A stretch of DNA of 54,148 bases from Gaeumannomyces sp. JS-464 (Eukaryota > Ascomycota > Sordariomycetes > Magnaporthales > Magnaporthaceae): contig NGZR01000015.1 of the NCBI GenBank assembly GCA_002197995.1, forward strand, positions 1 to 54,148, written 5' to 3'. Positions 1 through 54,148 of the stretch are shown here, piece by piece. Numbering within the stretch: position 1 is the stretch's first letter; every line of letters starts with the position of its first letter. A program made the translations under genes and the position numbers. The notes beneath the pieces were generated by a model. That model had not been told where the DNA came from. It worked only from the letters and a program-made list of their open reading frames with translations, and made no database searches.

Positions 1-1632
1 GTCAACGTCAGTCGTAACCCGTGTGTCGTAGGTGTAAAGTGGGTCGTGTGTGGTGTGTCCGTAGTGTAAGTAAAGCCGCCAACGTGTAAAAGTCCGTCAA
101 AGGTCGTAGGGAGTGTGTAACGTCCAGTGGTAGCGTGTAAAGTGTGTGTCAAAGTAGTAGGGTAGTAAGTGTGTGTACCCGTGAAGTAGTCGTGAAAAGT
201 GTGTGTGTCAACGTACAAACGTCCCCACAAGTCGTGTGTAGAAAGTAGTACCGTACCACAGTGTGTGTAAAGTGTGGTAGTGTAAACGTACCGTAAAAGA
301 GCGTGTGTAGTCGTCGTAAGTAGTGGTGTGAGGTGTAAAAGTAAACCGTGTAAGTCAAACAGGTGTGTCCCCAAGTGTGTGTGAAGTGTAGGGTGAGTGT
401 GTGTGTGTAAGTGCGTAGTAAAAAAACACCCGTGTCAGCGGTCAGGTAAAACCACGTGTAACCAGGTGAAAGGTCGTGTGCAGTAGTGTGTCGTAGTGTG
501 TGCAAAGTGTCGTGGGCGTGTAAAACGGGCGTCGTAAGGTCAGGGAAAGCGTAAACGTGTAAAGTGTGGTCAGAGTAGTGTGTGTACCGTCGTAGTGTGT
601 AAGTACGGCGTGTGTAAGTAGACACGTAGTGTCGTAGTGTGTAGTACCGTGTCGTAAAGAAAGAGTGGTGTGTACCGTGTCGTGTGTCAGTGTAAAGCGT
701 AGTAACGTGTCGTGTGTAAAAAGGTAAAGTAGGTGTAAGTGGTGTGTAGTAGGGTGTAAGTAGCGGGGTAAGTGTAGTGTAAAAGTGAGTCAAGTAAGTA
801 AGAGTAGTAAAGTCCGTCGTAAACCAGAGACGTCGTAGTAGTGTGAAAAGAGTGTCGTGCCCCCAAGTGTGTAGGTGTAGTAGTGTACCGTACGTCCAAA
901 GAACAAGTGTGTAAGTGTGTGGTGTCGTAACAGAGCGAGAGTCGTGTGTGTCAGTGAAGACCGTAGTGTGTGAAAGTGGTAGCGTGTGTGTACCCGTAAA
1001 GCCGTGGTGTGTGTACACCGTAGGGGTCGTGAACGTAAGTGTCCGTACGTAGTAAAACACCCGTGTCGTCCAGTCAGGTAAAGTCCGTGGTAAGTAGTAA
1101 GTGTAGGAGTGTGTAAGTCGTGTGAAGGTAGAAAAAAAGAGTGTGTGTGTGAGTGTAAGTAGTGTCGGTAGTAGTAGAAGTAGTGTGTGTGTGTGTAGCA
1201 AAAGCAAAGCCACCACCCCGTAAGTACGTAGTGTACGGAGGTAGGTAGAGTAGTAACAGGTAGTGTAAAAGTGTGTGTGTAGTGTGGAGTAGTAGTAAAA
1301 ACCAAGGTGTGTCCCGTGGCGTCGTCAGAGACACCGTGTACAAGTAGTGTGTAGAAAAGTAGTGTGAAGAACCGGTCGTGCGTCGGTGTGCGTCGTGTGT
1401 ACAGAGTAGTAGGACGTAGTCGTGAGTGTGTAGAGTCCGCGAGTGTACCCAGTGTCCAGTCCGTGTCAGTAGGAGTGAAGTCGTCGTAAGTGAGTGGTGT
1501 ACGTAGTACCCGTCGTAGTCAGTGTAAGTGAGGCCACGTAGTAAAGTAGTGTGTCGTAAAGTAGTAGGTGTGTAGGTGTAGTGTAGAGCGTGTGTAGGGC
1601 GTGTACCCGGAGGTGTGTGGGTGTCGTGTGTC
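1..1632 (-). mobile_element. cox3 intron 3, group I, left copy, truncated by window start
   Basis: The intron follows cox3 exon 2 (5' end near 1632, where decoded text reads GTGAAAGAACCAAAC). A conserved core lies at about 1330-1480; on the minus strand it reads GGGTAATCGCGGATC and then CAGATAGTCC. The intron encodes a LAGLIDADG endonuclease downstream of the core and runs off the window. The same intron is complete at 15463-17246. Confidence 0.78.
13..1230 (-). CDS. LAGLIDADG homing endonuclease, cox3 intron 3, left copy
   Basis: This intron-encoded endonuclease would cut an intronless cox3 allele so that the intron is copied in by repair; some relatives also act as maturases. Two LAGLIDADG helices are visible: ITGFTDGEGCF (about 1051-1090) and WLSGFTDAEGCFF (about 419-470). 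Between them is a fold typical of the two-domain family (FQIGLHEKD-like strand). The C terminus has the family signature KDHLTRKG, but here the frame breaks into TAG, because one A is missing compared with the right copy, which reads on as LTRKGLDEL. The start is not determined; the frame is open to about 1230. Confidence 0.85.
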
Positions 1633-1791
1633 ACAGGTGCGTAAACGTAGTGAAAAAAAGCGTCAGAAGTAGTAGCCAGTAAAAAAGTAAAGCGTGTCAG
1701 AAACGTAGTAAACAAGAGTAACACCGTAAAGTGTGTAAGTCCCGTGTGTGTGGTACAGCCAGAGGTGGTGGGTCACCGTAAAAAAGGTCAG
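1633..1791 (-). CDS. cox3: Cytochrome c oxidase subunit 3, exon 2, left copy
   Basis: Decoded minus-strand translation gives TFLGDHTLAVQKGLNLGV followed by ILFIVSEALFFMAIFWAF and FHS, the highly conserved central helix region of COX3, a core inner-membrane subunit of complex IV. TGA is read as Trp in AIFWAF. It is flanked by group I introns on both sides. A run of six T here is five in the mirror copy, so one of them is a sequencing error. Confidence 0.93.
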
Positions 1792-3377
1792 TAAGTGTGT
1801 GTCAAGTAGTAGTGTACGTAGTAGTGTGAGTGTGGACGTGTGTAGTAGTGTAAGTCAAGTAGGGTGTGTAGTGAAACGGTAGTGTGAGTCGTGTCAACGG
1901 TAAAGGTCGTCGTGAGGGTCCGTACGTAAGAGTAGTAGTGTCGGTCGTGGTGTGGGTGTCCCGTGCGTGAGTAGCCCGTAAAAGAGTAGGGGTGTGTCCA
2001 GCAGTACAGGTGTAAAGTGTGTAACGAGGGCACGTGTGTGTAGTGGTAGTAACCACGGTAGCAACAGTAGCGAAGTGTACGTGTAAGTCGTAGGTGTGTG
2101 TCCGTAGTGTAAGTGTCGTCGTAAGTGTGTGTGTAAGTCGTACCGTGTGTCAGTCAGGTAAGGGTGGTGTGGTGTGTAGAAAGTGTAGTCAGTAGTGTAG
2201 TAAACGTGAAACGTCAGTGTGTGTACAGTAACGTAGTCAGTAGTGTGTCGTCACACCGTAAGTGGAGTAGTGTGTAGTCAAAAAGTAAAGAGTAAGTGTA
2301 AAAAGTGAGTAGTCGTGTAGTCGTAGTAGAAGAGTAGTGGTAGTAAAGAGTAAGTACGTGTCGTGAGTCGTGGGTGTGTGTAGTGTACGTAGTGTAGTAA
2401 CAGTGTGTGTAAAGTGTAGGTAGTCGTAAAGTAGTAAAGAGTAAGTCGTCGTCCAGTAAAAGGTGTGTCAGTACGTACAAGAGTGGTAGGGTGTGTAGTC
2501 GTAACAAACGGTGTGAGTCGTAAGTCGTAAACCGTGTAAACGTAAGTAGTGTGTGTCACGTGTACAGAGTCGTGTGTGTACGAGGTAGTCGTGAGTGTGT
2601 ACCGTGTGTGCGTGTGTCGTAGTAGTAGTGTGTAAGTACCAAAAGTGGTCCGGTCAGCGTGTCGGGTAAAACCAGGTGTAAGTCAACGTAGTGTAGTGTA
2701 GTGTGAAAGTCCGGTCGCGTGTGCGCAGTCCAAGTAAACGTGTGTCAGAGTAGTAGAGTAAGTAAAGTAGTGTGTAGTCAGTGTAAAAAAGTGTCAAGTG
2801 TAAGTGTGTAGTGTAAAGGGTGTAGTAGTGTGTGTAGGGTGGTGTCGTGTAAGTGTGTGTCCAGTGGTAGTCAAAGTGTGTAGTAAAAGAAGGTAGTACC
2901 GTGTCGTGTGTAGTCGTCCAAGTGTAGTAGTAACGGTAGAGGTAGTGTGTGTGTACCGTGAGTAAGTGTGAAAACGGTCCGTAGTACCACCGTAAGTGTC
3001 GTGAGTGTGAAGTAAAGTGCAAAAAGACCGTAAAGTGTAGTCAAGTAGTGAGAAGGTAAAAACGTAGTGTCGTAGGAGTGTAAGGTAGTGTCGTAGTGTG
3101 TAAGGGTGTGGTAGTGTGTCCGTAAGTGAAGGAAGTAGTAGTAGTAGTGACCAGTCACCGTGTCGTAAAAGACCACGTGTAAAGTAAGTAGTCCAAAGTA
3201 AAGTGTAGGAGTGTAGTGTGTGTGTAGTAAAGTAGTGTGTGTGTAGGTAGAACAAGGTAGAAGTGTAGTAGTAAAGTCGTAGGTCGTGTAAGTGTGTAAG
3301 TGTCGTGTCGTGTGTGGGGTAGTAGCGTGTGTAGCGTGGTGTGTGTCAAGTAGTCAAAGAGTGTCGAAGTAGTAGTA
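1792..3377 (-). mobile_element. cox3 intron 2, group I, left copy
   Basis: The intron lies between COX3 residues ending IIAEGT and those starting FLGDHT. A group I core is at about 1890-2000, reading on the minus strand AGCAGGGAACCAACAGACG and then CAGAGACTTTACG (R-like element). It encodes a LAGLIDADG endonuclease whose frame continues from exon 1. The mirror copy is at 13738-15282. Confidence 0.8.
2090..3370 (-). CDS. LAGLIDADG homing endonuclease, cox3 intron 2, left copy
   Basis: First motif YLSGLLEGDGHIYIPS at about 3149-3195, followed by NPRIVFTSHIDNLGLF and an FQLSGKNTYVI strand. Second motif WLTGFTEADGHF at about 2640-2695, with TGA used for Trp. The reading frame is open from cox3 exon 1, so the product may be made as an exon-intron fusion that is then processed, as known for other fungal intron proteins. 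Predicted role is intron homing into cox3. The 3' end is approximate. Confidence 0.85.
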
Positions 3378-3666
3378 GGCGTGGTACCCGTCGTGCGTAG
3401 TGTAGTAGTCACGGAAGTCAAAAAGACAGTAGAGTGAAAGTGTAGCAGGTAGTGTAAAGCGTAAAGTAGTAAGTGAAGTAAGTAGTCCAGTGTAGTGTAA
3501 AAGTGTGGTGCAGTAGAGTAAGGCCCCACGTAGAAGGTGTAAAGCGTAAGTAAAGAGTAGTACGTAGAAGTAGTAAAGGGTCAAGGAGAAGGAGAAACGT
3601 AAAGTGAAAAGGAGTGAGTCGTGTGGAAAGTGTACGTGTCGTGTACGTGAAAGTAGGTCAAAAAGT
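3378..3666 (-). CDS. cox3: Cytochrome c oxidase subunit 3, exon 1, left copy
   Basis: Translation reads TISVRSNFQDHPFHLVSPSP, then WPLYSSISLLALTSSGAL, and ends MSFWFRDIIAEGT. This matches the COX3 N terminus: HPFHLV motif, first two helices, and WFRDI before the conserved loop. No in-frame ATG is visible. Upstream in-frame codons are AT-rich (ATA or TTG could start), and indels in the A/T runs could hide the true start. Confidence 0.92.
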
Positions 3667-4101
3667 GTGTGTGTGTGTGTGTAGTGTGTAGTAGTGTAGT
3701 GTAGTATGGTAGTGTGTGTCCCGTAACAGTGTGGGTGTGTGTAGTAGCGTGCGTAGTGCGTCCGTGAGTGTGTACGTACGGTAGGTACGTACGGTAGCGA
3801 GTACCAGGGTAGCAAGTGTGAAAAAAGTAGTAGTGTAGTGTGTCAGTGTAGTCAAGTAGCGTGTCCGTACGAAGGTACGAAGGTACGAAGGTACGAAGGT
3901 ACGAAGGTACGGGTACGGAGGTAAGCAAGCGAAGCGTAGCGAAGCCAGCGTACGTAGTGAAAGTACAAGCCAAGTGTGCGTGTAGTGTGTCAGTAGGTAG
4001 CGTAGCAAAGCAGTCAGTGTCGTACGTGTGGTGTAAGCGTAGTAAAAAAGTGTGTGTAAGGTAAGTGGTAAAGTAAAGTAAAGCAAGCAAGCAAAGCAGC
4101 A
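3667..4101. repeat. Spacer with GC hairpins and TACGAAG tandem repeat
   Basis: No gene seen. At 3866-3912 the decoded text has about five copies of TACGAAG. At 3905-4000 come GC-rich hairpin units with GCTAGCGAAGCCAGC and CTATGAAATACAAGC, and then the mirror form TTATTTCATAGTAGC. These belong to a dispersed family found at many sites in the window. The complementary version of this spacer is at 12983-13423. Confidence 0.75.
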
Positions 4102-4189
4102 AGAGGTACGTAGGAAGTCGAACCCAGAACGTGGAAGGTGTGAAGCGTGTCGTAAGTGTGTGTACCAGTGTAAACGTACACGTCGTGTA
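4102..4189 (-). tRNA. trnW: tRNA-Trp (UCA), left copy
   Basis: Decoded minus strand folds with acceptor AAGAGTG/TACTCTT, a D arm with AATGGTA loop and a T arm with TTCGATT. The anticodon loop is one base short here (CTTCAA). The mirror copy at 12889 has CTTCAAC, giving anticodon TCA, the tRNA needed to read TGA as Trp. The short loop is best explained as a sequencing deletion. Confidence 0.8.
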
Positions 4190-4204
4190 GTAAAAGTAAG
4201 TAGT

Positions 4205-4291
4205 AGGACCGTGAGGGAGTGTCGAACCCCCGTCCAGTGTACGAGTGTAAAAGGTCAGTAAGGTACGTACCAGTGTAGTACGAAAAGTCCC
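4205..4291 (-). tRNA. trnK: tRNA-Lys (UUU), left copy
   Basis: Acceptor GGGATTT pairs with the 3' end. The anticodon stem TATGA/TCGTA encloses loop CTTTTAA, anticodon TTT. The T arm contains GTTCGAA. Confidence 0.88.
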
Positions 4292-4557
4292 GTACGGTAG
4301 TGTAGGTAGGTACGGTAGTGTACGGTAGTGTAGGTAGTACGGTAGTGTAGGTAGGTACGGTAGTGTAGAAGGTGGTGCGTGTGTCCAGTACGTGTCGTGT
4401 AGTAAACGTGTCGTAAGAAGGTACGTGCGTGTAGTGTGTCAGTACGTGTCGTGCACGAAGGTAAGCAAGCGAAGCGTAGCGTACGTAGTGAAAGTAAGAA
4501 GACGTGTAGGTACAGGTAGGTGCGTACACACAGAAGCAAGCAAGCAGGTAAGTCACA
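4292..4557. repeat. Direct repeats of TACGTATTAG and GC hairpins
   Basis: About five direct copies of a unit like TACGTATTAGTAG lie at 4292-4372. From 4380 to 4545 come GC-hairpin units including GCTTATTTCATACTTC and GCTACTATGAAATAAG. No gene is visible. Mirror copies are at 12570-12775. Confidence 0.75.
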
Positions 4558-4646
4558 GTACGAGTGTAGGTCGGACGTCGAACCGACAGTACGCGTGGTG
4601 TGTGGAAGACAGGTAAGTCCGTACCAGTGTAAAGTGAGTAAGTCGG
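4558..4646 (-). tRNA. trnG: tRNA-Gly (UCC), left copy
   Basis: Anticodon stem ACTGT/ACAGC around loop CTTCCAA, anticodon TCC. T arm GTCGG-TTCGAGT-CCGAC. Acceptor ACGATTA pairs with TAATCGT. An apparently identical tRNA occurs a third time at 23686. Confidence 0.92.
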
Positions 4647-4837
4647 TGTGTGTGGTGGTGAAGCGCGTGTGCGTGTACGTACGAAGGTACGTACGTGTCG
4701 GTAGGTAAGCAAGCGTGTGCGTGTAGTAGTGAAAGTAAGAAGACGTGTCGACGTGTCGGTACGCGTACGGTAGTAAGTAAGTAAACGTGTGTGTAGTAGT
4801 AGTGTGTAGTCGTAGTGTCAGTGTGAGTAGTAGGTAG
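4647..4837. repeat. GC hairpin spacer
   Basis: Contains TACTTCGTA and GCTTATATGAAATAAG units of the dispersed hairpin family, then AT-rich sequence up to trnN. No gene is seen. Confidence 0.65.
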
Positions 4838-4922
4838 GTCCCGTAAGAGTGAAGTCGAACAGTCGTAGTCGCAGCAGTGTAACAGGTGCCGAGCGTCGTA
4901 CCGGTGTGAGCGTAGTAGGGAC
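4838..4922 (-). tRNA. trnN: tRNA-Asn (GUU), left copy
   Basis: Acceptor GTCCCTA, D arm GCTC-AACGGTA-GAGC, anticodon stem CGGCA/TGCTG around CTGTTAA (anticodon GTT), T arm with GTTCGATT. Confidence 0.92.
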
Positions 4923-4925
4923 AGT

Positions 4926-5027
4926 AGGAAGAAAAGGACGTCGAACCGTGTCGACAGCGTAGTGAGTAGCGTAAGTGAGGTGTGTACAGCGTCAACCCGG
5001 TCAGTACCCACAAACGGAACCGTGTCC
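4926..5027 (-). tRNA. trnY: tRNA-Tyr (GUA), left copy
   Basis: Class II tRNA with a long variable arm. Acceptor GGAAG/CTTCC, loop CTGTAAA with anticodon GTA, T arm GAAGGTTCGAGTCC. It lies directly 3' of rns, as is common in Pezizomycotina. Confidence 0.88.
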
Positions 5028-5249
5028 GTGAGTAGTGTAGAAGTAGTCAGTGTCGTAAGTAGTGTGTGAGTCGTGTCAGTCAGTAGTAAGTCGTAGTGTG
5101 TAGTGTAAGTAGTGAGTAAAAGTAGTGTGTAAGTCGTAACCGTGTCACGTGTGTAGAGTGTAAAAGAGTCGTGTGGTAGTGAAAAGTACAAGAGTCGTGT
5201 GGTAGTAAGTGTAAAGTGTAGTACGTGTGTGTGTGTGTGTGTGGTGTAA
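5028..5249. other. AT-rich spacer between rns and trnY
   Basis: Decoded AT-rich text with a near-perfect inverted or direct pair around 5160-5212 (ACAAGATCTTGTAT seen twice). No gene is recognised. Confidence 0.5.
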
Positions 5250-6860
5250 AAAGTCAGTGTAAGTCCCGGTGCAACGTGTCCACGTACACGAACCGGTAGT
5301 GTGTCGACGTGTAACACGTAAGTGTAGAGGTAGCGCAGTACGAAGAAGTGTCGTAGTGTGTAGGTGTGTGTCGTAAAGTCGTGTAGTACAGTGTGTACGT
5401 GTAGTGTAGTACAAGTAGAAAAGCAAAAGTGTAGTGTGCACCCACGTCCGTGTGTCAGCAGTGGTGACGAGGTGGGTGTAGGTACCAAGTCCGAGGGTGT
5501 GGAGTGTCACCGGTGACAGTGGGTGAGTGTCACGAGTGTACGTAGGTAAGTGTACGTGTAGTGTCAGTGGTAGCCGAGGTGTGTCAGACGTACAAGTCCA
5601 GTAGTGTCGTGTGTGTGTAGTCCGTAGTGTGTGTGAGAGTGTAGCGTGTAAAGTGTCGCAGTGTGTGTGCAGTCGTCGTGTGTGGTGTGTGTAGGAAAGT
5701 GGTGGCACGGTCGTAGTAGCCCACAAGTGGTAAAAGCCAGTGAGTGACGTGTGGTCGTGTAGGTCCCGTGTGTGTAGTCAGTGTAACCGCGTAGTGTAGT
5801 GGCGAAGTCGGCGTCGTAGTAAAAAGTGTAAAGTGTGTAGTAAAGTAGAGCAAGGGCGTGTCCGGTGTAAGTGTGTCAGGAGTGTGTAACCAGTGTAGTG
5901 TGTCACAACAGTGTAACGTGAAACAGCCGGTGCAACAGTCGTGGTAGTAAAGTAGTACAGTAGTGTGTGGGTAAGGGTGTGTGTGTCGGTGGAGTCAGTC
6001 GAAGTGTAAACAACAGTACGTGTCACGTACGTGGGTGGTCAGAAACGGGTCGTAGGTGAGTGTGTCAGGTGTCCGGTGTGGTGTGCCAAGTGTGTACGTC
6101 GTGTGAGGGTGAAAGTGCGTGTACACGTGTGTCAGTGTGTAGTAGACCAACGTACGTGAGTGACGTCCGCGTGGTAAACGTAAGTGTGTGTGTGTCGTAG
6201 TACGTAAAAAAAAACACAGCGTAGTACGTGTGTAAAGTACGTAAGTAGTAGGTAGTGTAGTGTAGTGTAGTGTGTAAGTAGTAAAGTAGTAGTGTAAAGT
6301 AAGTACGTAAGGTAGTAGGTAGTGTAGTGTGTGTAGTGTGTGTAGTAGTAAAGTAGTAGTGTAAAGTAAGTAAGTAGTAGTGTGTAAAAGCAACCGTAGA
6401 GTAACAGCCCGTGCGTACGAAGGTAGTGCAGTGGCGTAGCCGAAGTGGCGTAGCCCGTGCGTACGAAGGTAGTGCAGTGGCGTAGCCGAAGTGGCGTAGC
6501 CGAAGTGGCGTAGCCACGTAGGAGAGGTCAGCGTGACCGTAGTGGCAGTGTAGTAGTGTGTGTCGTGCAAAGACGTACGTGTGGGGTAGTCGTAAGTCCG
6601 TGTGTGTCGGTGCCCGTGTGCCGTGTCGGTCCGTGTCAACGGTCAGGTGTGTGTAAGAGTAAAAGGGTGTGCCGTGTCGCCGTGTAACCAGGTCCGTCGT
6701 AAGGTAGTCACAGAAGTGTGTGTAGTCGTCGTCCGTCCGTAGTAGGTACGTACCGTGTGTGTCAGTAGTAAAACGTCGTAGGTGTACAGTGTGTGTCCGT
6801 GTGTAGTAGTGTGGAAGTGTAGTAACCGGTCGTAGGGTACCCGTGTGTAACACGGCAAGT
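5250..6860 (-). rRNA. rns: Small-subunit rRNA, 3' exon, left copy
   Basis: Read on the minus strand, the text matches the 3' half of SSU rRNA. Seen are the 790 loop GGATTAGATACCC (about 6585-6600), the 900-region AATTCGATGATCCACG, the 1190-1200 region CAAGTCATCATGG and the 1370 region GTAATCGTGAATCACC. The 3' end near 5250 is approximate. The 5' part of the gene is missing from the window: upstream of about 6860 the sequence becomes intron and then reaches the duplication axis. Confidence 0.9.
6405..6520. repeat. GC tandem insert in an rns variable region, left copy
   Basis: Repeats of ATGGCTAGCCGA (five visible) alternate with TGCTACGAAGTATGCA palindromes, inside rns between conserved blocks. 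Expansion of GC units in an rRNA variable loop is tolerable for function. The mirror copy is at 10565-10685. Confidence 0.8.
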
Positions 6861-8522
6861 GTGTACACCCGTGGGCAAAGAGGTGGTAAAGTGTGTGTGT
6901 GTCAGAGTGTGTAGTCAGTAAAAGTGTAAGAGGAGTAAAGTCGTGTAGTGTCAAGTGTGTGCCCGTAGTAGAGTGTGCCGTACCCGTGTAGTGTCAGTAC
7001 CCGTCCGTGTGTAGTGTGTGTGTGGTAGTGTGTGTGGCCGCACCAGTCGTGTCAGGTGTAAAGTGAACGTGTGTAGTGTGTGTGTCAGTGTAAAGTCGTG
7101 CGTACAGTAACAAAAAGTCGGCAAAAGTCGTGTGTGGCCGTGTAGTCACCGTAAGAGTAGGAGTAGTGTGTGTGTCAAAAAAACGTAGTGACGTGTGTAG
7201 TCAGGTAAGTAGTCGAGTAAAGTGTGTAAAAACGTGTGGAAGTGTCAGTAGTACAGTCCCGTGTGTGTGTGTGTGTAAGTGTGTACCACAACCGTAAGGT
7301 AAGTCGTAGTCAAACGTGTGTGTCAGTCAACAGCGTCAGTCACGGTAGTGTGTGGTGAGGTGTAGTGTGTAAGTAAACGTGTAAAGTAGTAGTGTGAGTA
7401 GTCCAGGTGAACGGTCGTGTAGAGTGTGTAGACAAACCGTACCAGTAAACAACCGTGTCAGCGTGGTCACAAAGTCCGTGAGTAAGTCAGGTGTACAACG
7501 TGTGGAAGTACGTAAGTGAAGTAAGTCGTGGTAGTGTCGTGTAGTAGCGTGGGTAGTAAGTAGTGTAGGAAAAGCAGCCGTGTGTAAGTGTGTGTCGTGA
7601 GTAGACCGTAAAGTGTGTAAAGAAGCCGTGTAAGAGAAGCGTAGTGTGTGTGTAAAAGACCAGTCGTGTAGGTGTAAGGTGGTGTCCGTGTGTAAGTGTG
7701 TAAGTGTAGGTGTCAGTAGGCGTGCGTGTGTAAAAGGTAAGGTAAGTCCGCGTGTGTGTGTGTGTGTGTAGGTAAGTGTAACGGAGTAGTGTGTAGTCGT
7801 AAAGTGCGTGTCAAAAGCACAGGTAAGTGTGTCAGTCGTAAAGGTGTGTGGTAGTGTCGTAGTAGTGTGAAGTAAGAGTGTGTGTGTGTCCAGAGTACAG
7901 TGAAGTGTGTGCCCGTACGTCCGTAGAAAGTGTGTGTGTAAGTGCGTGTGTCGTAAGTAAGTGCGTCGTAGTCGTGTGTAGTCAGTGAAGAGTGTAAGTG
8001 TGGAAAAAAAGGTGTGGTACGTCGTGTCAACCGTAGTGTGTCGTCGTGTGTGAGTCGTGTAGGTGTAAAGCGTAGTGTCGTAAAACAGTCCGTGTCACCG
8101 GTCAAGTAAAGTCCGTGGTGTAAAAAGTCAAGGAGTGTGAAAGTGTAGGTGTGTGGGTGTAAGTAAGTAGTGCCGTAGGTGTGGTAGAAGTAAAACCGTG
8201 AGTCGTGTGTGTGTAGTCGTAAGTGTAGTGTAGAAGGGAGTGTCGTGAGTCGTGAGTAAGTGTGTCGTGTGTCGAAACCCAGTGTAGAGGTACACCGTGT
8301 AAACCCGTGTGCAAGTGTAAGCAAGTGTGGTCAACGTACCAGTCGTACGTCGTGCGTCGTGTGTGTACAGGTACGTAGTGTACCAGTGTGTACAAGTACG
8401 TGACGTGTAGAGTCCGCGAGTGTACCCAGTGTGTCAGGTGTGTCCGTGTCAGTCCAGTGTCGCGTGTAGTGTACGTGTGTACCGTAAGGAAGTGTAGCGT
8501 CAGCCACGTCAAGTAGTGTGTC
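6861..8522 (-). mobile_element. rns intron, group I-like, left copy, 5' part lost at axis
   Basis: The sequence between the rns exon and the axis contains intron core text at about 8400-8510 (minus strand: GGGTAATCGCGGATC, CTAAGTCAGTATTG), similar to the cox3 intron-3 core. It is followed by a LAGLIDADG gene. The 5' splice site and upstream rns exon are not in the window. Confidence 0.65.
6925..8180 (-). CDS. LAGLIDADG homing endonuclease, rns intron, left copy
   Basis: First motif FLTGFIDGEGCFRIAL at about 8085-8130, preceded by NQTNFNPW. Second motif WLSGFVTAEGCLW at about 7440-7495. Between them are the usual FFQLNLHEKD and LLESI segments. The predicted role is intron homing into rns. Start and stop are approximate because of frame noise. 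The second motif has Val-Thr-Ala in place of the usual Asp-containing stretch, so one active-site acid may be missing. Confidence 0.8.
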
Positions 8523-8609
8523 AGTAGTGTGTGGTGTGTGTCAGTCAGTAGTGTGTGTGTGTGTGTCGTCGTGTGTGTCCGTGGTGTGGGTAAAACCAGT
8601 GTCGGTACG
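8523..8609. other. Spacer at the axis of the inverted duplication
   Basis: About 55 decoded bases separate the arms. The last matching block on both sides is CAAATATG followed by A/T-rich sequence. The spacer is pyrimidine-rich on its left half (runs of T, then CTCTTTTTCC) and shows no gene. A missed sequencing adapter or a fold-back point would look like this; I cannot prove either. Confidence 0.6.
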
Positions 8610-10240
8610 TAAACCAAAGTAGTGAAAAGTAGTGTGTGAGGTGGCGTGAGCGTAAGTGTCCGTGTAGGGTAAAGGTAAGTAAGCGAAGTGGAGTGAAGGA
8701 AACGTGAAAGTGGGGTAAGTCGCGGAGTCGTAAGGTCAGGTAGTGTGGTGTAAAGTGGGTAAGTAGGTACGTGGTAAAGAGCAACGTAGAGTGGGTAGGT
8801 GTGACAAGTGTGCGTGTAAGTGTGCAAGGGGTGTGTAAGGGTGGTACGTCGTAAGTGGGGTGTGTCGAAAGAAAGTGTAGTCAGAGTCAGAAGTCCCGTG
8901 TCGTAAGTAAAGTGTAGAGTAAAAAGAGTCAGGGTGTGTGTAGTGTCGTACAACGTAGGCAGTAGTGTAGTGTAACCAAACGTAAGTGTGTCACCGTGTG
9001 AGTGTGTGTGTAACGAGTGTAGTGTGACGGGTGAAGGAGTGGTGTGTGTAGAAGTAGCGTGTGTAACGTAAGAGTCAACAGAGAAAGTAGGGTGTGAAGA
9101 GGTACAACGTGTGTGTGTGTGTCCAAAGTGTAAGTCGTGTCAGTGAGTAAAGAGTAGAGCAGTGTAGTGTAGAAAGCAGTGTAAAAGTGTGTCGTAGGAG
9201 GTAGGGCAAAGTGTCAGTGGTAGTCGTGGAAAAAAGTCGTGTAGTGTCAAGTAGTAGAAGTACAAACGTGTGTAGAGTGAAAGTGTACGTGGTGTGTGTG
9301 TGAAGCAGTGTGTAGAGTAAAGTAGTCCGGTGTAAGTGTACGTAAAAAAAAGCGGAGTGTACGTGTACGTGTGTGTGTAAAGCAGCCGTAGTGAACGTAA
9401 GTGTAAAGTGTAAAGGAACACGTGTAACGTAAAGTGGGTCGTGTGTGTAAAAAGTAGCGTGTCGTCGTGTAAGGCGTGTCGTGTGTAAAGTGTGTAGGGT
9501 CGTAGTCAGAACAAGTGTAAAGGCGTGCGTGTGTGTCCGTAAGTAGTGTAGTACCAGCGTAGTAAGAAAGTACAGAGTGTAGTGTAGTAGTGTAGGTAGT
9601 GTCCAAGGTGTGGTAACGTGAGTGTAGTCAGGAGTGTGTGGTGACAGCGTGAAGGGTGTGGTGTGTGTAGTGGGTAGGGTGTGTGGTCGTAAAGTCGTAA
9701 GACGGTGTCACGTGGAGTAGTCAAAGTAGTAGTGTGTAAGGTGTGTGTAGTGTAGTAACGTCAACACAGTACGGTGAGTGAGCGTGGTGTGAGTGAAAAG
9801 GTGTGTGAGTAGAGTGTACGTGTAGGGTGTGGTGGGTAAAGTGTAACAAGAAAAAGGGAGTGGTAGTAGTGAAGTGTCCAAGTGTGTGTGTAAAGTGTGT
9901 AGTCGAGTAGTGTACGTGAGTAAAGGTCAGTAGTGTGTGTGTGTGTGTGAAAAAGTAGTCCGTAGTCGTGTAGGGTGAGTAAGGCCAAAGAGTGTGTGTG
10001 CCGAGTGTGTGTGGTGTAGTGGTAGCAGAGTGTGTAAGTGAAAAGTAAAGGTGTCAGTGTGTAACGTGAAGAGTGGGTGCGGCCAAAAGTACAAAAAAGT
10101 AAAGGAGGGGTAGTGAAGTAAGGGGTAGGCAAGTCGTAGTAGGGCAAAGTGTGAAGTAAGAGTGTGTAGTCCGTCGTGTAAGTGTGTGTAGTGAGTAAAG
10201 TCGTGAAAAAAGTGTGTACACGTCGTGTGTGCCCAGGGGT
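8610..10240 (+). mobile_element. rns intron, group I-like, right copy
   Basis: Core text at 8640-8780: GGCTGAGCTAATTCC, AATGGGTAATCGCGGATC, then CAGTATTGTTAAATGG. It is followed by the endonuclease gene and then rns exon near 10241. The 5' splice site lies beyond the axis and is absent. Confidence 0.65.
8960..10150 (+). CDS. LAGLIDADG homing endonuclease, rns intron, right copy
   Basis: Mirror of 6925-8180. First motif at about 9015-9050; two bases (AG) before the motif are missing compared with the left copy, giving ACGATTTATTGACGG. Second motif at 9615-9660 (TATCAGGATTTGTGACAGC). Comparing the two copies allows consensus repair of the frame. Confidence 0.78.
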
Positions 10241-11798
10241 GGTAAAGTGTGCCGGTGGTGTAAAGGGGTACCGTAGACGGGTGTAGTAAGTGTCCAAGTA
10301 AGTAAAGGAAAAGTGGTAACGTAGGGTGTGTGTAGTAGTGAAAGGGTAGGTACGTAGTAGGAGGAGAGAGTAAAAGTGTCGTGGTGAGTACGTGTAGAGG
10401 ACGTGGGTGTAAGGCGAAGGCAACCGTGTGTGTAGTCGTGTAAAACGTGACGGTGTGAAGGACGAAGGCAAAGGGCACGAAAAGGAGTGTAGAGTACCCA
10501 AGGTAGGTCGTGTGTGCAGAAAAAGTAGTGAAGTGCCAGTAGGGTCAGCGTGACGTCGTCCGTAGGTGGCGTAGCCAGTGTCGGCGTAGCCAGTGTCGGC
10601 GTAGCCAGTGCAGTACGTGTCGGTAGCAGGGCGTAGCCAGTGTCGGCGTAGCCAGTGCAGTACGTGTCGGTAGCAGGGCGTGGTGTAGTCGTAGGGTGTG
10701 CGTGTGTGTAAGTAGTAGTGTAGTGTAGTGTGTAAGTAGTAGTGTGTAGTAGTAAAAGTAAAAGTAAGTACGTAGTACGTGTAGTGTAGTGTGTAGTAGT
10801 GTGTAGTAGTGTAAAGTAAGTAAGTACGTAGTACGTGTAGGTAGTGTGTAAAGGTAGTAGCGTGGTGGTGTGTGTGTGTGTGTGTGTAGGTAGTAGAAAA
10901 AAGTGTAGGTGTGTACAGCGGAGGTCAGTCAGGTAGGTGTGGGTCGTAGTAAAGTGAAAGGTGGTAAGCAGTGTGTCACCGTCAAGAGGTAAAGTGTGGC
11001 AACAACGGAACGTGAAAGTCACGTAGACCGGTGTGTCGTGACACCAGGTAGGTGAAGGTAGTGTGGTGGTGTGTAAGTGTCGAGTGAGTCCACGAAAAAC
11101 CGTGTACCACAAGTAGTGGTAGTAGTGTGTAGTACAGAGTGGTGTGCACGGCGTGGTGTGTCAGGTGTAAGTGGTGTGGTGAAAGTAAGTGGGTGTAAAG
11201 TCCAGTGAAAGTGTAACGGAAGCCCGTGTGCGTCGTAGTGTGTAGTAAAGTGTGTAAGTGTGTGTGTAGTAGAGCCGAGTGTCGCCAGTAAGTAGCGGGT
11301 GTAAGTGAGTAAAAGGGACGTAAGACAAGGTCAGTCAGTGGCGTGTGTGTACAGTGTGGTGGGCGTAGTAGACGGTGCCACAGTGTGTGTCCGTAAAACA
11401 AAGAGAGTGCAAAAGTGCGAAGTGTGTAAGCGTAAGTCGTCAAAAAGTAGGAAAAAGAAGTAGTGGAGTGTGGTAGGTCGTGAAACGTCGGCGTACAGTG
11501 AAGTAAGGTAAGTGTACGTAGGTAAGTCGGTGAAGTCACCAGTGGTCACGGGTGAAGTCCAACCGTCGGAGTGTGGGTACGTAACCACGTCGGTCACAGT
11601 GCGTGAAAGGAGGTGGGGTGCAAGTAAGTGTGTGTGCGTGTGTCGTAGTGTGGTAGTAAGTAAGGTAAAGTGGTAGTAAGAGTGTAGAAAACGTAGTAGT
11701 AGAGTGTCGTGTCGGTAGTGCGCGTACGTCGTAAGTGTAGGTGGTGTAAGGTCGAAAGTACGGGTGTCGGTGGTAGGTGGAAGGTGTGCACGGGAGTG
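10241..11798 (+). rRNA. rns: Small-subunit rRNA, 3' exon, right copy
   Basis: Plus-strand copy with GGATTAGATACCC at about 10485-10500, immediately before the GC insert. The 3' end, near GTTGCACGGGATT (about 11785), is approximate. This copy leads in native order into trnY, trnN, trnG, trnK, trnW and cox3. Only about two thirds of the gene is present. Confidence 0.9.
10565..10685. repeat. GC tandem insert in rns, right copy
   Basis: Mirror of the insert at 6405-6520; repeated GGCTAGCCATTC units and GCATACTTCGTAGCAG palindromes. Confidence 0.8.
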
Positions 11799-12017
11799 TA
11801 AGTGAGTGTGTGTAACAAAAAAAACAAGGTAGTAAGTGTGTAAGTGTAGTACAAGAGTCGTGTGGTAGTGTGTCAGTACAAGAGTCGTGTGTGTAAGTCG
11901 TAAAGGTGAAGGGTGTAGAGTGTAAAGTAGTGTGTGTGTAGTCAGTGTGTAAAGTAGAGTGTAGTAGTGAGTGAAGAGTCAAAGTAGTGTAGAAGTGAGT
12001 AGTGTCGTAAGTAGTCA
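11799..12017. other. AT-rich spacer between rns and trnY
   Basis: Mirror of 5028-5249; no gene seen. Confidence 0.5.
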
Positions 12018-12128
12018 GGAAGGGTGTCCGGTGTGTGGTGGGGTAGTGACGGGTGTGAGCGTGGTAAACGTCAGTGTAGCGTAGTCAGTAGCGTGGTCGA
12101 AGGGTGTCGAGGTCCGTGTGTCGTGTCC
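12018..12128 (+). tRNA. trnY: tRNA-Tyr (GUA), right copy
   Basis: Starts GGAAGGTTCCGTTTG and ends GTTCGAGTCC plus acceptor strand. Long variable arm, anticodon GTA. Mirror of 4926-5027. Confidence 0.88.
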
Positions 12129-12132
12129 GTAG

Positions 12133-12220
12133 TGGTCCCGTAGTAGCGTCAACGGGTAGAGCGTCGGCACGTGGTGTAAGTGCGTGCGAGTAGAGTGGTG
12201 TCGTGTCAGTCGTGTAGGGA
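12133..12220 (+). tRNA. trnN: tRNA-Asn (GUU), right copy
   Basis: GTCCCTATAGCTCAACGG start, loop CTGTTAA, end TCTTAGGGAC. The T loop is missing two bases compared with the left copy (GTTCTTCATC against GTTCGATTCATC), a likely read error. Confidence 0.88.
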
Positions 12221-12402
12221 CGTACGTAGTAGTCAAGTGAAGTAGAGTAAGTAAGTAGTAAAAAGGTGTGTAGTGTAGTGTAGTACGGTAGCGGTACGAA
12301 GGTCGAAGGTCGTGTCGTGTGTGTGTCAGTAGTAAGCAAGCGTGTGCGTGTACGTACGAAGGTAGGTACGTGTCGGTAGGTAAGCAAGCGCGTGTCACAC
12401 AA
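12221..12402. repeat. GC hairpin spacer
   Basis: AT-rich segment, then TACGAAG, GCTTGCTTAC and TACTTCGTAG hairpin units. No gene seen. Mirror of 4647-4837. Confidence 0.65.
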
Positions 12403-12492
12403 ACGAGTGTAGTCAGTGTGTAAGTGGGTAGGAGTGTACGTGGTCGTGTCCAAACAGCGGTAGTGGTCGGGTGTCGAGGTCCGACGTAAGTC
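12403..12492 (+). tRNA. trnG: tRNA-Gly (UCC), right copy
   Basis: ACGATTATCATTTAATGG start, loop CTTCCAA with anticodon TCC, T arm GTTCGAGTCCGAC. Same tRNA as 4558 and 23686. Confidence 0.9.
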
Positions 12493-12775
12493 GGTAGTGG
12501 TGAGTGTACGTGCGTGTGCGTGTGCGTGTCGTGGTGGTGGTAGCACGTACGTGGTACGTAAGGTCGTGTCGTGTAGTGTGTCAGTAGGTAGCGTAGCGTG
12601 TCGCGTGTGCGTGTACGTGTCGGTAGCAGAAGGTAGTGAAAGTAAGCAGGTACGTGTCGTGTAGAAGGTGTGTAGTAAGAAGGTAGTGGAAAGCACACGT
12701 GTCGTAAGTACGGTACGTACGTAAGTACGGTACGTACGTAAGTACGGTAAGTACGGTACGTACGTAAGTACGGTA
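12493..12775. repeat. GC hairpins and TAATACGTACTAC direct repeats
   Basis: A TTATTTCATAGTAGC hairpin near 12573, a TACTTCGTAG unit near 12615, then about four direct copies of TAATACGTACTAC at 12699-12773. Mirror of 4292-4557. No gene seen. Confidence 0.75.
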
Positions 12776-12868
12776 GGGAGTGTGTCGGTGTAAGTGGGTA
12801 GGTACGTGTAGTGACGTGTGTGTAAGTCGGTAAGTGGAGGGGGGTGTCGAAGTCCCGTCAGGGTCCGT
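12776..12868 (+). tRNA. trnK: tRNA-Lys (UUU), right copy
   Basis: GGGATTTCG start, loop CTTTTAA with anticodon TTT, GGTTCGAATCCC T arm. It differs by small indels from the left copy near the D arm. Confidence 0.86.
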
Positions 12869-12888
12869 AGTAGTAGTAGTGTGTGTAG

Positions 12889-30391: not shown

Positions 30392-30392
30392 A

Positions 30393-43300: not shown

Positions 43301-45339
43301 GGTGGTAGTGGTCAAAAGGGAAACAGCCCAGAACAAGAGGTGTAAGGGTGTCCAAAATGTAGTGTAGTGTAAGGTGAAAGTGTAAGAAGGTGTGTGTAGT
43401 GTGTAAGGTCGACAAGGAGAGTAGGCGTGTGGAGGCAGCCAGTAAGTGTAAAGACCGTCGGTAACAGAGCGCGTGTGGTGTAAGGTGTGTGTAAAGCAGT
43501 CGAAAAGTAGTAACGGAGTCGTAAAGTAAGTAGTACCGAGTACCGTGGTCCAGTAAAGTGTAAGAGTAAGTGTGTAGTGTAGTGGTGTAGTGTGTAGTGG
43601 GGGTAGCAGAACGGTGTGGGGTGTGTAGTAGTGAGAGTGTGTGTGTCGTGTAGTGTGTGTGTAAGAAAAGTGTAGTAAGTAGTAACGTCAAGGTGAGTAA
43701 GTGGGTGACAGTGAGGTAACGTAAAAAGAGGTGTAGTACGTCGTCGCCGTGTAAGCGTGTAGTGGCGTAAGGTAAAGGTAACGGCCGTCGTAAGGTGTGT
43801 GTGTGTAACCGTGAAGGGTGTAAAAGTGAGTGAGAAAAGTCGTGTAAAGTGTAAAAAGACAACAGTGTGTGTGTAAGGTGAAAAGGTGGTGCAGGAAAGT
43901 GTGTGTGTAAGTAAGACAGTAAAGTAGTGGACCAAGTAAAACGTAAAAAGAGAAGAAAAGTAGTAAGTGTCAACCGTACCGTATAAGCGTGCAACAAGGT
44001 AAGCGTAGGTAGAGGAGTACGAAGGCGGTAAAGTGAGAGTAACAAGTCAGTAAAGGAACGTCGGCAAAAGTAACGTACCGGTAACGTGTAGGGAGTAAGG
44101 AGGGCGTCAGTGTAGTGTCGTGTGAGTGTAAGTAGTCAAGGTAAAAAGGAAGAAGCAGTGAAAGTAGGTGGTGTGGTACGACGTGTGTAAGTGTAAACAA
44201 AGCACGTGTGTGCAAAAAGAGTGAGTAAAGTCGTAAGGTAGTGTGAGGTGGTGAAAGTCGTGCCCGAGTGGTCGGCGTGGGTGTAACGAAGAGTAACGTA
44301 AAGTGTGTGTGTAAAGGGTGTGGGTGGTGTGCAGGAAACCCCGAGTGAAGTGGCGGCCGTGTAACGGTGAGGGTCCGTAAGGGTAGCGAAAGTGCCGTGT
44401 GGCCGGTGTAAAGTGCGGGTCGTGTGCAGTGAAGTGAGTGGTAACGAGTACAACAGCGTGGTCGTCGTAGTGAGTGTGACGTCAGGTGAAAGTGTGGAAG
44501 TAACGTGGTGCAGAGTACAGGTGTGTACCGTCGTAGAGTAGACGAGAGGTGCGACGTAGCGTAAGGTGCGTGTAAAAACAAGTGGTGGGTGAAAACCCAC
44601 CAGAGTAACCCGGTGTAGTCGTGAGCGTGTAGTGGTGGCAGTGCAGTGTAAGAGGTAAGTGTTGTGTGTTGTGGTGAAGCCCACAAAAGTCCGTGCCGTG
44701 TGTGTGTGAGTAAAGGGAGGGTGAGCGTAGTAGTGTACGTAGTGGAGTAACGTAAAGGTGAAGTCGTGCGGTCGTGAAGCGGTAGAGTCGTAGAGCGTCG
44801 TAGTGTCGTCGTACAGGTAGAAAAAGTGTGTGTAAAAAGTAGAGGTGTTGTGGTGTAAGTGTGGTAGTAAACAAGGTGTCGTCGGTGTGTGTGTAGTGTA
44901 AGTGGGGTCGTAAGTAGTGTAACCGTACGGTAGTAGCAGGAGTCCGTAAAGGTAAAAGTGTAAGGGTGGTGTGTGTGTAAGGTAAACGTAGGTAAGCCCC
45001 AGTAGGTGCCCGTAGTACAGCGGTAGTAAGGAAGGTTGTAACGTGGTGAAGGTGTAAAGTGTACAGTGTAGGGGGTAAAGGATGCGTCGTAAAAAGCGAA
45101 AGGTGTCGTAGTGTGTAAGTGAGTAGAAAGTAGGGTGTAGTGTGACGTAAGTGTCGAAAGAAGTGCGTGACGTGTAGAGGTGGGGTGGTGTGTAGTGTAA
45201 ACGTAGTAACGGTAAAGTGTGCAGTGTGAGTGTGGGGTACCGGCGTGTGTCGTGTAAGGTGAGTACGCAGTGTGGTGTGTAAGTGGTAGCGTAAGAAAGA
45301 GGCAGTGGCGTCCGGTAGCGTGTGTGTGTAAAGAGTGTA

Positions 45340-46556
45340 AGAAAAAAAAACGGGAGTAGAGAGAAAAGACACAGTGACAAACCCAAAGTAACAGTGTCAA
45401 AAGTAGTCAACGAAAAGGTGTGGAGTCCGTAGTGGTGAGGTAACAGGGAGTGTGGTAGACGCGGAAGGGTAAGTGTGTGTAGCAGTAGTAGTGTACAACG
45501 AAAAAACGGAGTAAAGTGTGTAGGTGCGTAGTGTGTGTGTAAAGGTGTACACAGAAAAGGTACGTGTCACGTAAAGTAGTGGTGTAGGTAGCGTGTGTGA
45601 AAAAGTGTGTGTGTGTAAGTGTGCGGGTAACAGTAGGTGTAGTGTGAGTAAGTAGGGAAACAGAGTGGAGTAGTAAAGTGTGTAACGGTGTGTCGTAAAG
45701 TGTGGTCGTGAGTGTGTGAGTAGTGTAGTGTAGTACCGTCAGTGTGTGTGAGTAAAGTAGTCCGTGTGTAGGGGTGTCGTAAGCAGTGTGTGGTGTGTGT
45801 GTGTAAGGTGTGTGTAAGAAAGCGTAGTGTGTGTACGTGTAGAAAAAGCGGTAGCGTGGCGTCCGAAGGAGGAAAGAACAAAGAGTAAGAGTGTCGTGTG
45901 TGTGTAGTAAAAACAGGTAGTGAAGTAAAAAAGAGTCGTGTAGTGAAGAGCGGTGTGAAACGTAGTCGTAAAGTAAAGTGTAGTCGTGTGTAAGTGTGTA
46001 CAGTCCGTGCGGTGAGGTACAGGCCGTGTGTGGTGGAGTGGGTGAAGGGTGTGGTGTGTGTCAAGTGGTAGAAGTAGCCAACACGTGGTAAGGTAGAAAC
46101 GTGTGTACGTGTACAGTGTAGGTGGTGTAAGTCCGTACCGTGTAGAGAGTAGCGTCAAAACAGGTCACGAGTGGTGGAAGGTGTGTGAAGTGCGTAGTGT
46201 AAAGAGGTAGTGTGTCGGGTGGTAGGGTGTAGTCGTAAAACCGTAAGGTAGTGAGTAGTGTAAGAGTGTGTAAAGTGAAGTCGTAAAAAGTCGTGGTAGA
46301 GGTGTAAGTAGAGTGTAAGTGTAGTGTAAGTCAAGAGGAGGGTAGGTGTAGTGTAAGTGTGTGTGTGTGAGTAAAGTACCCCGTGTAGTGTAACGTGTCA
46401 AAGAAGTGTGTAGAGTGTAGTGTCAGAGTGTGAAAAGTGTAAGTAAGTAGAGGTGTAAGAAAAAAAAGTGTCACAGTCGGACGTCCCGAGGGGAAACAGG
46501 AAAGTGAGTAAAGTAGTCAAAGTGTAGGGTAGTGAAGTAGCAAGTAGAGTAGTGTA
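45340..46556 (+). CDS. LAGLIDADG homing endonuclease in group II intron 5
   Basis: First motif WVTGIVDAEGNF at about 45430-45480, then SIYYNEKTDKFSAIFKVTQK, FFNCGNIVIDNRETDGYKFN and IIIPHFDKYPLGS. Second motif WVQAFVDGEGCFQCRIA at about 46020-46080, then FTYISVNPTLEIAQNSHDVK, KEYFGVGYLKPKYD and DKYPLLTSKNLDYSDWK. The C terminus is IKLGMNSNRY. A possible GC insert near 45845-45875 (AGCTGGCTCCGAAGGAGG) breaks the frame. Confidence 0.85.
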
Positions 46557-52095: not shown

Positions 52096-52192
52096 TGGAG
52101 TGTAGGTCGGTCGTAGGTGGAAAGACAGTAGCGTCGTGTGTCAAGTGCGTGAGGTCGCAGGGTGTCAACGTCCGTGCCGTAGGTCGTAAGTG
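52096..52192 (+). tRNA. trnE: tRNA-Glu (UUC)
   Basis: Acceptor GGATTAG/CTAGTCT, D arm CGTCTAGTGGAAAGACA, T arm CGCAGGTTCAACTCCTGC. The anticodon arm TAGCTCTTCAATGCTGA suggests TTC with an indel. The position after trnT supports Glu. Confidence 0.78.
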
Positions 52193-52281
52193 CGGAGTGT
52201 AGTGGTAAAGTGGGTGTAACAAGTGTGTGTGACGTCAGTGACCAAAAAAGTAGTAGGTGTCAAAGTCCGTAGTAGTCCGCC
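52192..52281 (+). tRNA. trnM: tRNA-Met (CAU), first
   Basis: Acceptor GCGGATT/ATCCGC; anticodon region TTTTTGACTCATGACCAAAA contains CAT; T arm TATAGTTCAAATCCTATA. Confidence 0.83.
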
Positions 52282-52785
52282 GTGCCGTACGAAGGTACGA
52301 AGGTACGTGTCGGTACGTGTCGGTACGTGTCGGTACGTGTCGGTACGTACGTAAGTACGTAAGTAAGTAAGTACGGTACGTACGTAAGTACGGTAGCAAA
52401 AGCACGCGTGTGTGTAGTGAAAGTAAGCAAGGTACGTGCGTGGTGTGTGTGTAGTGTGTCAGTAGGTAGCAACCAAAGGAGTACACGTACGTGTCGGTAG
52501 TAAGGTACGTGCGTGGTGCGTGTCGTGTAGTGTGTCAGTAGCAGCAACCAACCAAAGGGGTACGCGTACGTGTCGGTAGAAGCGCGTGCGTGTCGTACGA
52601 AGGTACGTGTCGCACGAAGGTAGGTACGTGTCGGTAGGTAAGCAGCCGTGTAAGTAAAGAAGTAGTGCGTGTGTGTAGTAGACGTGTGCGTAGTGGGTGT
52701 ACGAAGGTAAGCGTGTACGTGTCGGTAACGTAGTAGTAGGTGTGGTGCGTGTACGTAAGGTAAGCAGCGTGTAGTGTGTAGGTGA
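52282..52785. repeat. Dense GC hairpin cluster
   Basis: About six TACTTCG copies (52296-52345), TACGTACTAATACG units, CTTTTATGAAATAAGC, and two copies of a composite element: TTATTTCATAGTAGCAACC, then AAAGGATACACTACTTCG (52451-52498), and TTATTTCATAGCAGCAACC, then AAAGGGTACGCTACTTCG (52527-52575). Related composites are at 48230-48275 and 53665-53715. No gene. Confidence 0.8.
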
Positions 52786-52880
52786 GGCGTAGTAGCGTGT
52801 AAGTGTGGGTAAAGCAGTACGTGCGTCAGTAACAGGTACGTGTACGTAAGGTGGTGTCAAGGTCACGTGTGTAGCCGTGT
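52786..52880 (+). tRNA. trnM: tRNA-Met (CAU), second
   Basis: Acceptor GGCTATA/TTTAGCC, D arm with AATTGGTA, anticodon stem TACTG/CAGTA around CTCATAA (CAT), T arm AAGTGTTCAAGTCACTT. One of the two Met tRNAs is presumably the initiator; which one is not decided. Confidence 0.87.
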
Positions 52881-52882
52881 AA

Positions 52883-52989
52883 GTCCGAGGTGAGTGAAAG
52901 TGTGGGTAGACAGTAACAAACGTGTAAAAGTGTGTGGTAGGGTGTAAGTAGCCAGTAAAGGGTGTCGAGGTCCGTGTGTGTGTCGGAGT
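52883..52989 (+). tRNA. trnL: tRNA-Leu (UAA)
   Basis: Class II tRNA. Acceptor TCCGA.../...TCGGA, anticodon stem ACAAA/TTTGT around CTTAAAA (TAA), T arm AAAGGTTCGAGTCCTTT. Confidence 0.86.
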
Positions 52990-53871
52990 AGCGTACGCAG
53001 TGGAGAGAGGGTAGTGTGTGAGTGTACGTAGGAGTAGTAGGGGTAGTGTGTAGTCGTAAAAAGTGTGTGTAGTCACCAGGTGTGTGTGTGTGTGTGTAGT
53101 GTGTGTGAGTGTGTGTGTGAGTGTGTGGGTGTGTGGTGCGTACGAAGGTAAGCAGTAGAGTGTACCGGTACGTGTACGTACGAAGGTAGTGAAGTGTAGT
53201 GTGCGTAGCGTACGCACGTGTCGGTAAGGAGCAAGCGTAAAGCGTACACGTAAGTAAGAAGTAAGTAGGTGTGGGCCGTGGCGTACGTAGTGAAAGTAAG
53301 AAGGTACGTAGTGTACGTCGTGTGTGTGTGTGTAGGTACGTGTCGGTAGGTGAGTGGTAAGGTAGTGCAGTGGTCGTACGTGTCGGTAGGTGGTACGGCC
53401 GTACGTGTCGTGCGTGCAACGGAGGTAAGAAAGCAGCGGTACGTGTCGGTAGTGCAGGGAACGTGTGTAAGAGTAAAGTACCCGCCGTAGGTGTAACGGA
53501 GTGGTAGGTGCGTGTACGTGTCGTAGTGTAAAGTAAGGGGGCGGTACGTGTCGGTAACACGTAGTCGTGTCGCGTGTAAGTGTGCAGTGTAGTGTGTAGA
53601 AGGTAAGCACACGTACGTAGAAGGTAAGCACACGTACGTAGCAAGGTACGTGCGTGGTGCGTGTCGTGTAGTGTGTCAGTAGCAACCAAACCAAAAGGGT
53701 CAGCGTACGTGTCGGTAGAAGGTACGTAAAAAAAAGTACCGGGGGTGCGTACCCCGTGTGTGGGGGTGTGCGTGTCGCGTGGCAGGTAGCGCGTGTACGT
53801 GCGTGTCGCAGTGAAAGTAGGTAAGCGCGTGTACGTGCGTGTCGCAGTGAAAGTAGGTAAGCGCGTGTAGC
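52990..53871. repeat. Longest gene-free stretch: GC hairpin cluster
   Basis: About 880 printed bases with no gene. After an AT-rich, T-rich part (53040-53130) come many TACTTCGTA / TACGAAGTA units, GGCTACTATGAAATAAG (53280), two GTAAGCACACTACTAGAA copies (53602-53640), the composite TTATTTCATAGCAACC + AAAAGGGTCAGC (53668-53705), a GC hairpin TACCGGGGTGCTACCCC (53737-53757), and two copies of GCGCTTACTGCTTCGCATGA at 53789-53862. Confidence 0.8.
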
Positions 53872-53969
53872 GGGGGAAAGTAGGTAGTAAGTGGGGTAGG
53901 TAGTAGCAAGTGTGTGTGCAGTAGTGTGGTGTGTGGTCCGGGTGTCGAGTGCCCGGGTGTGTCGTCCAC
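53872..53969 (+). tRNA. trnA: tRNA-Ala (UGC)
   Basis: Acceptor GGGGAAA/TTTCTCC, D arm with AATGGGTAGTA, anticodon stem CAATT/ATTG around TTTGCAT (TGC), T arm TCCGGTTCGATGCCCGG (one mismatch). Confidence 0.87.
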
Positions 53970-54005
53970 AGTAGTCGTGTGTCAGTCGTAGTCCAGTGTC
54001 AGTGT

Positions 54006-54105
54006 GCGTCAGTGGTAACGTCAAGTGTGGGTAGAGGTGAAAGTACGTGAAGAGTAGTGTGTGTGTGGTGTAGTAAGGTGTCGAAGTCGTGTAGTCGTGT
54101 GGGCA
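54006..54105 (+). tRNA. trnF: tRNA-Phe (GAA)
   Basis: Acceptor GCTCATG/TTGGGC with wobble, D arm CTCAATTGGTAGAG, anticodon stem AATAC/ATATT around TGAAG (GAA), T arm TAAGTTCGAATCTTA. Last gene in the window; the final 43 bases show nothing more. Confidence 0.86.
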
Positions 54106-54148
54106 AAGAGTGTCGTGTAAAGTGTAGTAAGGGGTAAGTGAGTGGAAG

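Follow-up and report, generated by a model that had tools for sequence, protein, structure and literature searches.

Systematic sequencing error as the very likely source of a T-to-GT pattern in contigs of the Gaeumannomyces sp. JS-464 assembly

Introduction

Systematic base-calling errors of single-molecule sequencing, those in homopolymers among them, can survive consensus, and those that are known are context-bound and partial. Here we analyse a stretch of 54,148 nucleotides, hereafter the window, in which practically every T is preceded by a G; it comprises the whole of contig NGZR01000015.1 (C7 in our numbering of contigs) of the Gaeumannomyces sp. JS-464 genome (GCA_002197995.1; 53,005,781 bases in 34 contigs). 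Like homopolymer errors, this pattern has survived consensus, but it strikes practically all occurrences of one base.

Two further kinds of artefact are close relatives. Missed SMRTbell adapters yield palindromic PacBio reads, as the excerpted text of one report describes (PMC6218980). Such reads resemble the contigs described here in folding back with a short loop where the sequence turns, and five loops here are adapter-like; the bases are correct in that excerpt, whereas here practically each T also has a G. Fold-back artefacts of long reads likewise share with our contigs the near-perfect inverted duplication of a read, but the excerpted text of the report concerned ascribes them mostly to library preparation and makes no mention of base-specific insertion (PMC12870357). 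The JS-464 genome was published as 53,151,282 bases in 80 scaffolds with an N50 of 7.46 Mb, from HiSeq 2000 and PacBio RSII data and with the use of FALCON, SOAPdenovo2 and HaploMerger2 (PMC5543644).

We consider it highly probable that the window is fungal mitochondrial DNA, very likely that of Gaeumannomyces sp. JS-464, and that G stands before practically every T since a minority of the PacBio RSII reads called T as G followed by T. The pattern does not belong to the organism itself and very probably stems from systematic error in the sequencing, not from biology.

Results

The window and its decoded content

By dinucleotide count, G precedes T in 13,276 of 13,287 cases, and the 11 exceptions (four AT, one CT and six TT) agree exactly with the initial annotation, which had described AT, CT and TT as practically absent. 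Eight of these 11 Ts are bunched to a degree that no set of 11 Ts drawn at random reached in 20,000 draws. Across ten records counted, exceptions number from 1 to 19 per record and are both scattered and locally clustered; among the places that could be mapped between the window and contig C13 no exception site is shared, the nearest pair lying at 32481 and 32489 in decoded coordinates. Decoding, by which we mean replacing GT with T, shortens 54,148 bases to 40,872, so that the encoding lengthens the text by about one third. Because each A on the other strand has a C after it, the raw minus strand of positions 2-54148 reads under genetic code 4 as one uninterrupted frame of 18,049 codons, by which gene finders could be misled.

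1..54148, plus strand: the entire contig, with a G inserted ahead of practically each T (decoded 40,872 bases, G+C 31%)
43036..45083, plus strand: eight of the 11 Ts lacking an inserted G, clustered (dinucleotide count, random draws)

Once decoded, the window yields 22 transfer RNA (tRNA) calls with ARAGORN, three of them with the anticodon unresolved, against none in the raw text. Ten control texts gave no tRNAs at all: GT replaced by G, GT replaced by G or T at random, five texts from which 13,276 Gs were removed at random, and three shuffles of the decoded text. Ten decoded frames gave Pfam matches to COX3 (two), RVT_1 (one), GIIM (one) and LAGLIDADG_1 (three), and three had no match; Rfam found nothing in the raw window. 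The features located in this way are as follows, in window coordinates.

1597..1976, minus strand: COX3 fragment, code-4 decoded frame in a fold-back arm (PF00510, E 3.8e-18)
3291..3787, minus strand: COX3 fragment, code-4 decoded frame in a fold-back arm (PF00510, E 4.6e-16)
10484..10499, plus strand: small-subunit (SSU) ribosomal RNA (rRNA) string GGATTAGATACCC, decoded (reverse-strand copy at 6583-6599)
12016..12983, plus strand: tRNAs Tyr(gta), Asn(gtt), Gly(tcc), Lys(ttt) and Trp(tca), decoded (ARAGORN)
16601..17144, plus strand: LAGLIDADG endonuclease fragment, decoded (PF00961, E 5.1e-14)
19526..20251, plus strand: LAGLIDADG endonuclease fragment, decoded (PF00961, E 1.1e-13)
31764..31781, plus strand: large-subunit (LSU) rRNA string AAGTACCGTGAGGGAA, decoded (exact string search)
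33744..34194, plus strand: reverse transcriptase fragment, decoded (PF00078, E 6.4e-17)
34480..35141, plus strand: group II intron maturase domain, decoded (PF08388, E 5e-09)
44375..44393, plus strand: LSU rRNA string CCTAAGGTAGCGAAAT, decoded (exact string search)
45210..45632, plus strand: LAGLIDADG endonuclease fragment, decoded (PF00961, E 5.3e-05)
52096..54106, plus strand: tRNAs Glu, Met, Leu, Ala and Phe, decoded (ARAGORN)

The string GTTCGAATC occurs at six places in the decoded window and nowhere in the raw text, and GAGCCGTAT occurs once, at 46799. The Trp(tca) tRNA fits the reading of UGA as Trp. With this tRNA, COX3, and introns with homing endonucleases or a maturase, the decoded window has the hallmarks of fungal mitochondrial DNA; it is such DNA, with introns, and its frames are broken by many small deletions. 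The initial annotation had read the window as a mitochondrial sequence in T-to-GT encoding and had proposed tRNA and protein searches on the decoded text with the raw text as control; the tRNAs, COX3 and intron-protein domains bear that reading out, and those of its rRNA and tRNA strings that were searched for are present after decoding and missing before. In the decoded SSU region (window 10344-10869), short G+C-rich units (GGCTAGCCATTCGGCTAGCC and similar) recur several times.

Spread through the assembly

At least 500 bases were read from each of the 34 contigs, of which 25 are shorter than 150 kb and nine measure 1.2 to 15.7 Mb. Twenty of the 25 short contigs are encoded in the stretch read, ten as T-to-GT (C6, C7, C8, C11, C13, C14, C17, C18, C20, C28) and ten in the reverse complement form, A-to-AC (C3, C4, C5, C15, C16, C19, C22, C25, C26, C27). 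The others are C9, which is part-encoded; C10, C21 and C24, which are clean where read; and C2, which is mainly N. No encoding is seen in the nine large contigs in the samples taken (0.5 to 10 kb of each, plus two sets of matched loci). A 17-base encoded string has at least 53 matches in the genome, all within encoded contigs, and its backward control pattern has at least four. The initial annotation had not seen this spread, which takes in at least 20 contigs and part of a twenty-first.

The encoded contigs, which we call ghosts, differ mutually by about 3 to 6%, and 13 of the 15 for which G+C was computed are AT-rich once decoded. A clean mitochondrial rRNA was not found: two decoded rRNA pieces compared with the whole assembly matched ghosts only (C13 and C15 for one, C7 and C4 for the other), in a search so lossy that the first piece failed to list the window, its own source. 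As for the source, a cytochrome P450 on contig C1 is 89% identical to that of Gaeumannomyces hyphopodioides and 84% to that of Magnaporthiopsis poae. The third largest contig, of 7,462,253 bases, is the N50 contig, and the smallest of the 34 has 10,429, in keeping with a cut-off at 10 kb.

Clean copies as witnesses

Three clean witnesses agree with the ghosts once the G is removed: ribosomal DNA (rDNA), a cox1 fragment and the start of the mitochondrial part of C9. Nuclear rDNA makes up the first 5,000 bases of C10; in it Rfam recognises SSU, 5.8S and LSU rRNA and a group I intron; on C16, an rDNA ghost of C10, Rfam found nothing. Decoded C16 and C19 are 98.7% and 98.3% identical to the C10 rDNA, on opposite strands. 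A G stands before 1,217 of the 1,220 Ts kept in C16 and before all 1,018 kept in C19, with 41 and 13 Ts lost. Those Ts that already followed a G also received an extra one (232 of 240 in C16, 283 of 287 in C19), and the rule is therefore an insertion, not a requirement that T must follow G. A rule of 'G before every T' leaves 111 internal gaps for C16 and 97 for C19, against 293 and 323 for 'G only where missing'. One G has thus been inserted before each T even where a G already stands, and both strands of one locus are encoded, each in its own direction, in separate contigs. That each strand carries the error in its own reading direction is seen both in the opposed C16 and C19 and in the division of the ghosts into ten T-to-GT and ten A-to-AC contigs.

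The second witness is a COX1-matching piece of scaffold C31, presumably nuclear because it is 2.99 Mb long. It matches decoded ghost C27 in 705 of 724 bases with one mismatch; G is present at 230 of 230 kept Ts, and 10 of 240 Ts are lost. Many single-base deletions separate the ghosts from the clean copies. This cox1-like piece, near position 2170651 of C31 (L028 1093-1816) and 97% identical to decoded C27, is likely mitochondrial DNA that was copied into the nucleus recently.

Contig C9 is the third. From position 10140 onward it matches the window's own locus, is clean at the start of that part, and passes into encoded text over about 2.5 kb. In consecutive 250-base bins of the reverse strand, the share of Ts with an inserted G runs 0/38, 0/78, 3/80, 26/68 and 36/75, and then up to about 0.85, a plateau that is a low ceiling, as Ts after G were scored as not inserted in that alignment. 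Within the transition the share inserted was 0.56 after C, 0.45 after A and 0.44 after T, with no strong effect of context.

Fold-backs and adapter-like loops

The window begins with an inverted duplication that the initial annotation had missed.

1..17103, no strand: fold-back, inverted duplication (decoded 1-12713), matching its own reverse complement at 96.9%
8533..8597, plus strand: fold-back loop resembling the PacBio SMRTbell adapter in read direction (scoring 12.0, with 5.8 for the reverse complement; 12.0 or more in 380 of 20,000 random windows)

Within the stretches read, fold-backs were found in five of the 18 ghosts tested (C6, C7, C11, C15 and C20). At each of the five turning points a window of fixed length, 70 bases, was scored against what we take to be the SMRTbell adapter sequence. 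The five loops sum to 66.6, compared with 36.2 ± 4.0 for random windows, none of 20,000 of which reached that value, and 29.8 for the reverse complement of that sequence. The loops are thus adapter-like and in read direction, which points to T-to-GT as the direction of reading.

Discussion

Origin of the pattern

The initial annotation had proposed a 'text-level or base-calling' substitution of non-biological origin. The non-biological origin is supported by the occurrence of both orientations and by clean scaffolds and clean copies in the same assembly. As between the two levels, both orientations, the clean scaffolds and copies, the gradual change in C9 and the fold-backs inside encoded text favour the reads. 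An edit of the file after assembly, with t turned into gt, would account for a pattern that is near exact in the window and for a decoding rule that amounts to plain string replacement. It is nonetheless very improbable, as half of the 20 encoded contigs show A-to-AC and other contigs are untouched, C9 turns from clean to encoded by degrees, exceptions are scattered and locally clustered at 1 to 19 in ten records, the many single-base deletions against clean copies and the mutual differences of about 3 to 6% go beyond such an edit, and fold-backs sit in encoded contigs. More improbable still is that the molecules truly carry the pattern, or that a modified T is misread, as in a biological encoding or hypermodified mitochondrial DNA. 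The AT-richness of 13 of 15 ghosts would concentrate the effect in sequence of mitochondrial type, and the failure of our lossy search to find clean mitochondrial rRNA would fit as well; but nuclear rDNA also has ghosts alongside its clean copy, C9 has part of the window's own locus in clean form, decoding is needed before any standard tRNA or protein appears, and a physically inserted G would disrupt all genes.

An error that arises in the reads from software, for example one movie base-called with the wrong dye or chemistry calibration, rather than from single molecules, is unlikely, though less so than either of these. It explains just as well why some reads, a minority, should show a deterministic error that affects both strands; against it, C9 changes gradually and exceptions cluster, which suggests a state varying along the read, or a mixture of reads, and the separation is not firm.

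Our preferred reading, that a minority of RSII reads called T as G then T, would work as follows. The error would arise in the reads and be so systematic that consensus cannot remove it. Bad reads from opposite strands would overlap neither each other nor clean reads, and so give strand-specific ghosts. The extra Gs would render hairpin adapters unrecognisable and thereby produce fold-back reads; these Gs may be the reason why adapters were missed here. Fold-back reads, and reads about a third longer than they should be, might have been favoured as FALCON seeds, and only high-copy DNA (the mitochondrion and rDNA) would have had bad reads enough to assemble. On the RSII instrument the dyes for T and G lie next to each other in the spectrum, and one T pulse was perhaps, speculatively, split into G plus T.

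Several points weigh against this reading. The minority share of bad reads is a presumption, and the dye step is speculative. No report of a T-to-GT error or of the dye explanation was found in our searches of the open-access literature, nor did encoded 16S and 23S strings have any match in one genome per species for 84,980 prokaryote species, which gave no second instance; the error, if recurrent, is rare among those prokaryote genomes or leaves out rRNA. As to the decoding itself, ten further strings that we take to be conserved in rRNA had no exact or only doubtful matches in the decoded window. Neither nad6 nor the reverse transcriptase motif YADD, both named in the initial annotation, was confirmed in the decoded text, and of the two group II domain V copies it had named, the second was not confirmed, GAGCCGTAT occurring once, at 46799. 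Thirteen of the 18 ghosts tested have no fold-back in the stretch read. As to the loops, the sequence used for scoring is what we take to be the SMRTbell adapter; their single scores were reached by 380, 82, 948, 8 and 810 of 20,000 random windows; and of 3,000 shuffled adapters 29 reached the summed score, as did 179 of 3,000 five-letter block shuffles, the order of letters being only moderate evidence.

Consequences for public assemblies

In one published fungal assembly, at least 20 contigs consist of encoded text, which comes to 613 kb provided that the encoding runs through the whole of each. On text of this kind gene finders, composition statistics and RNA models fail, as the lack of any tRNA or Rfam match in the raw window illustrates, and the encoding conceals the window's genes from ordinary searches. 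Similar contigs could be screened for simply by asking whether nearly all Ts come after G, or nearly all As before C. We raise tentatively, as a doubtful prospect, that RSII molecules could gradually enter and leave an undescribed state in which each T is read as G plus T, and that ghost scaffolds in other public long-read assemblies hide organelle genomes recoverable by one-line decoding.

Neighbouring features

Two candidate clean copies were set aside. GGATTAGATACCC in scaffold C1 is a chance match, its locus having no match to the decoded ghosts, and a second COX1 match, in C33 near 374184 (L029) and with an in-frame TAG, has none to the decoded ghost stretches compared. The nuclear 18S rRNA gene holds the following feature.

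L011 1535-1822, minus strand: group I intron within the nuclear 18S rRNA gene (Rfam, 57.6 bits)

Positions 1-9891 of C9 are a clean element with perfect terminal inverted repeats of 85 bases and frames for a type B DNA polymerase (1252 codons), an RNA polymerase (1079) and a GIY-YIG protein. This element looks like a linear mitochondrial plasmid; a single N, at position 10139, stands between it and the mitochondrial DNA.

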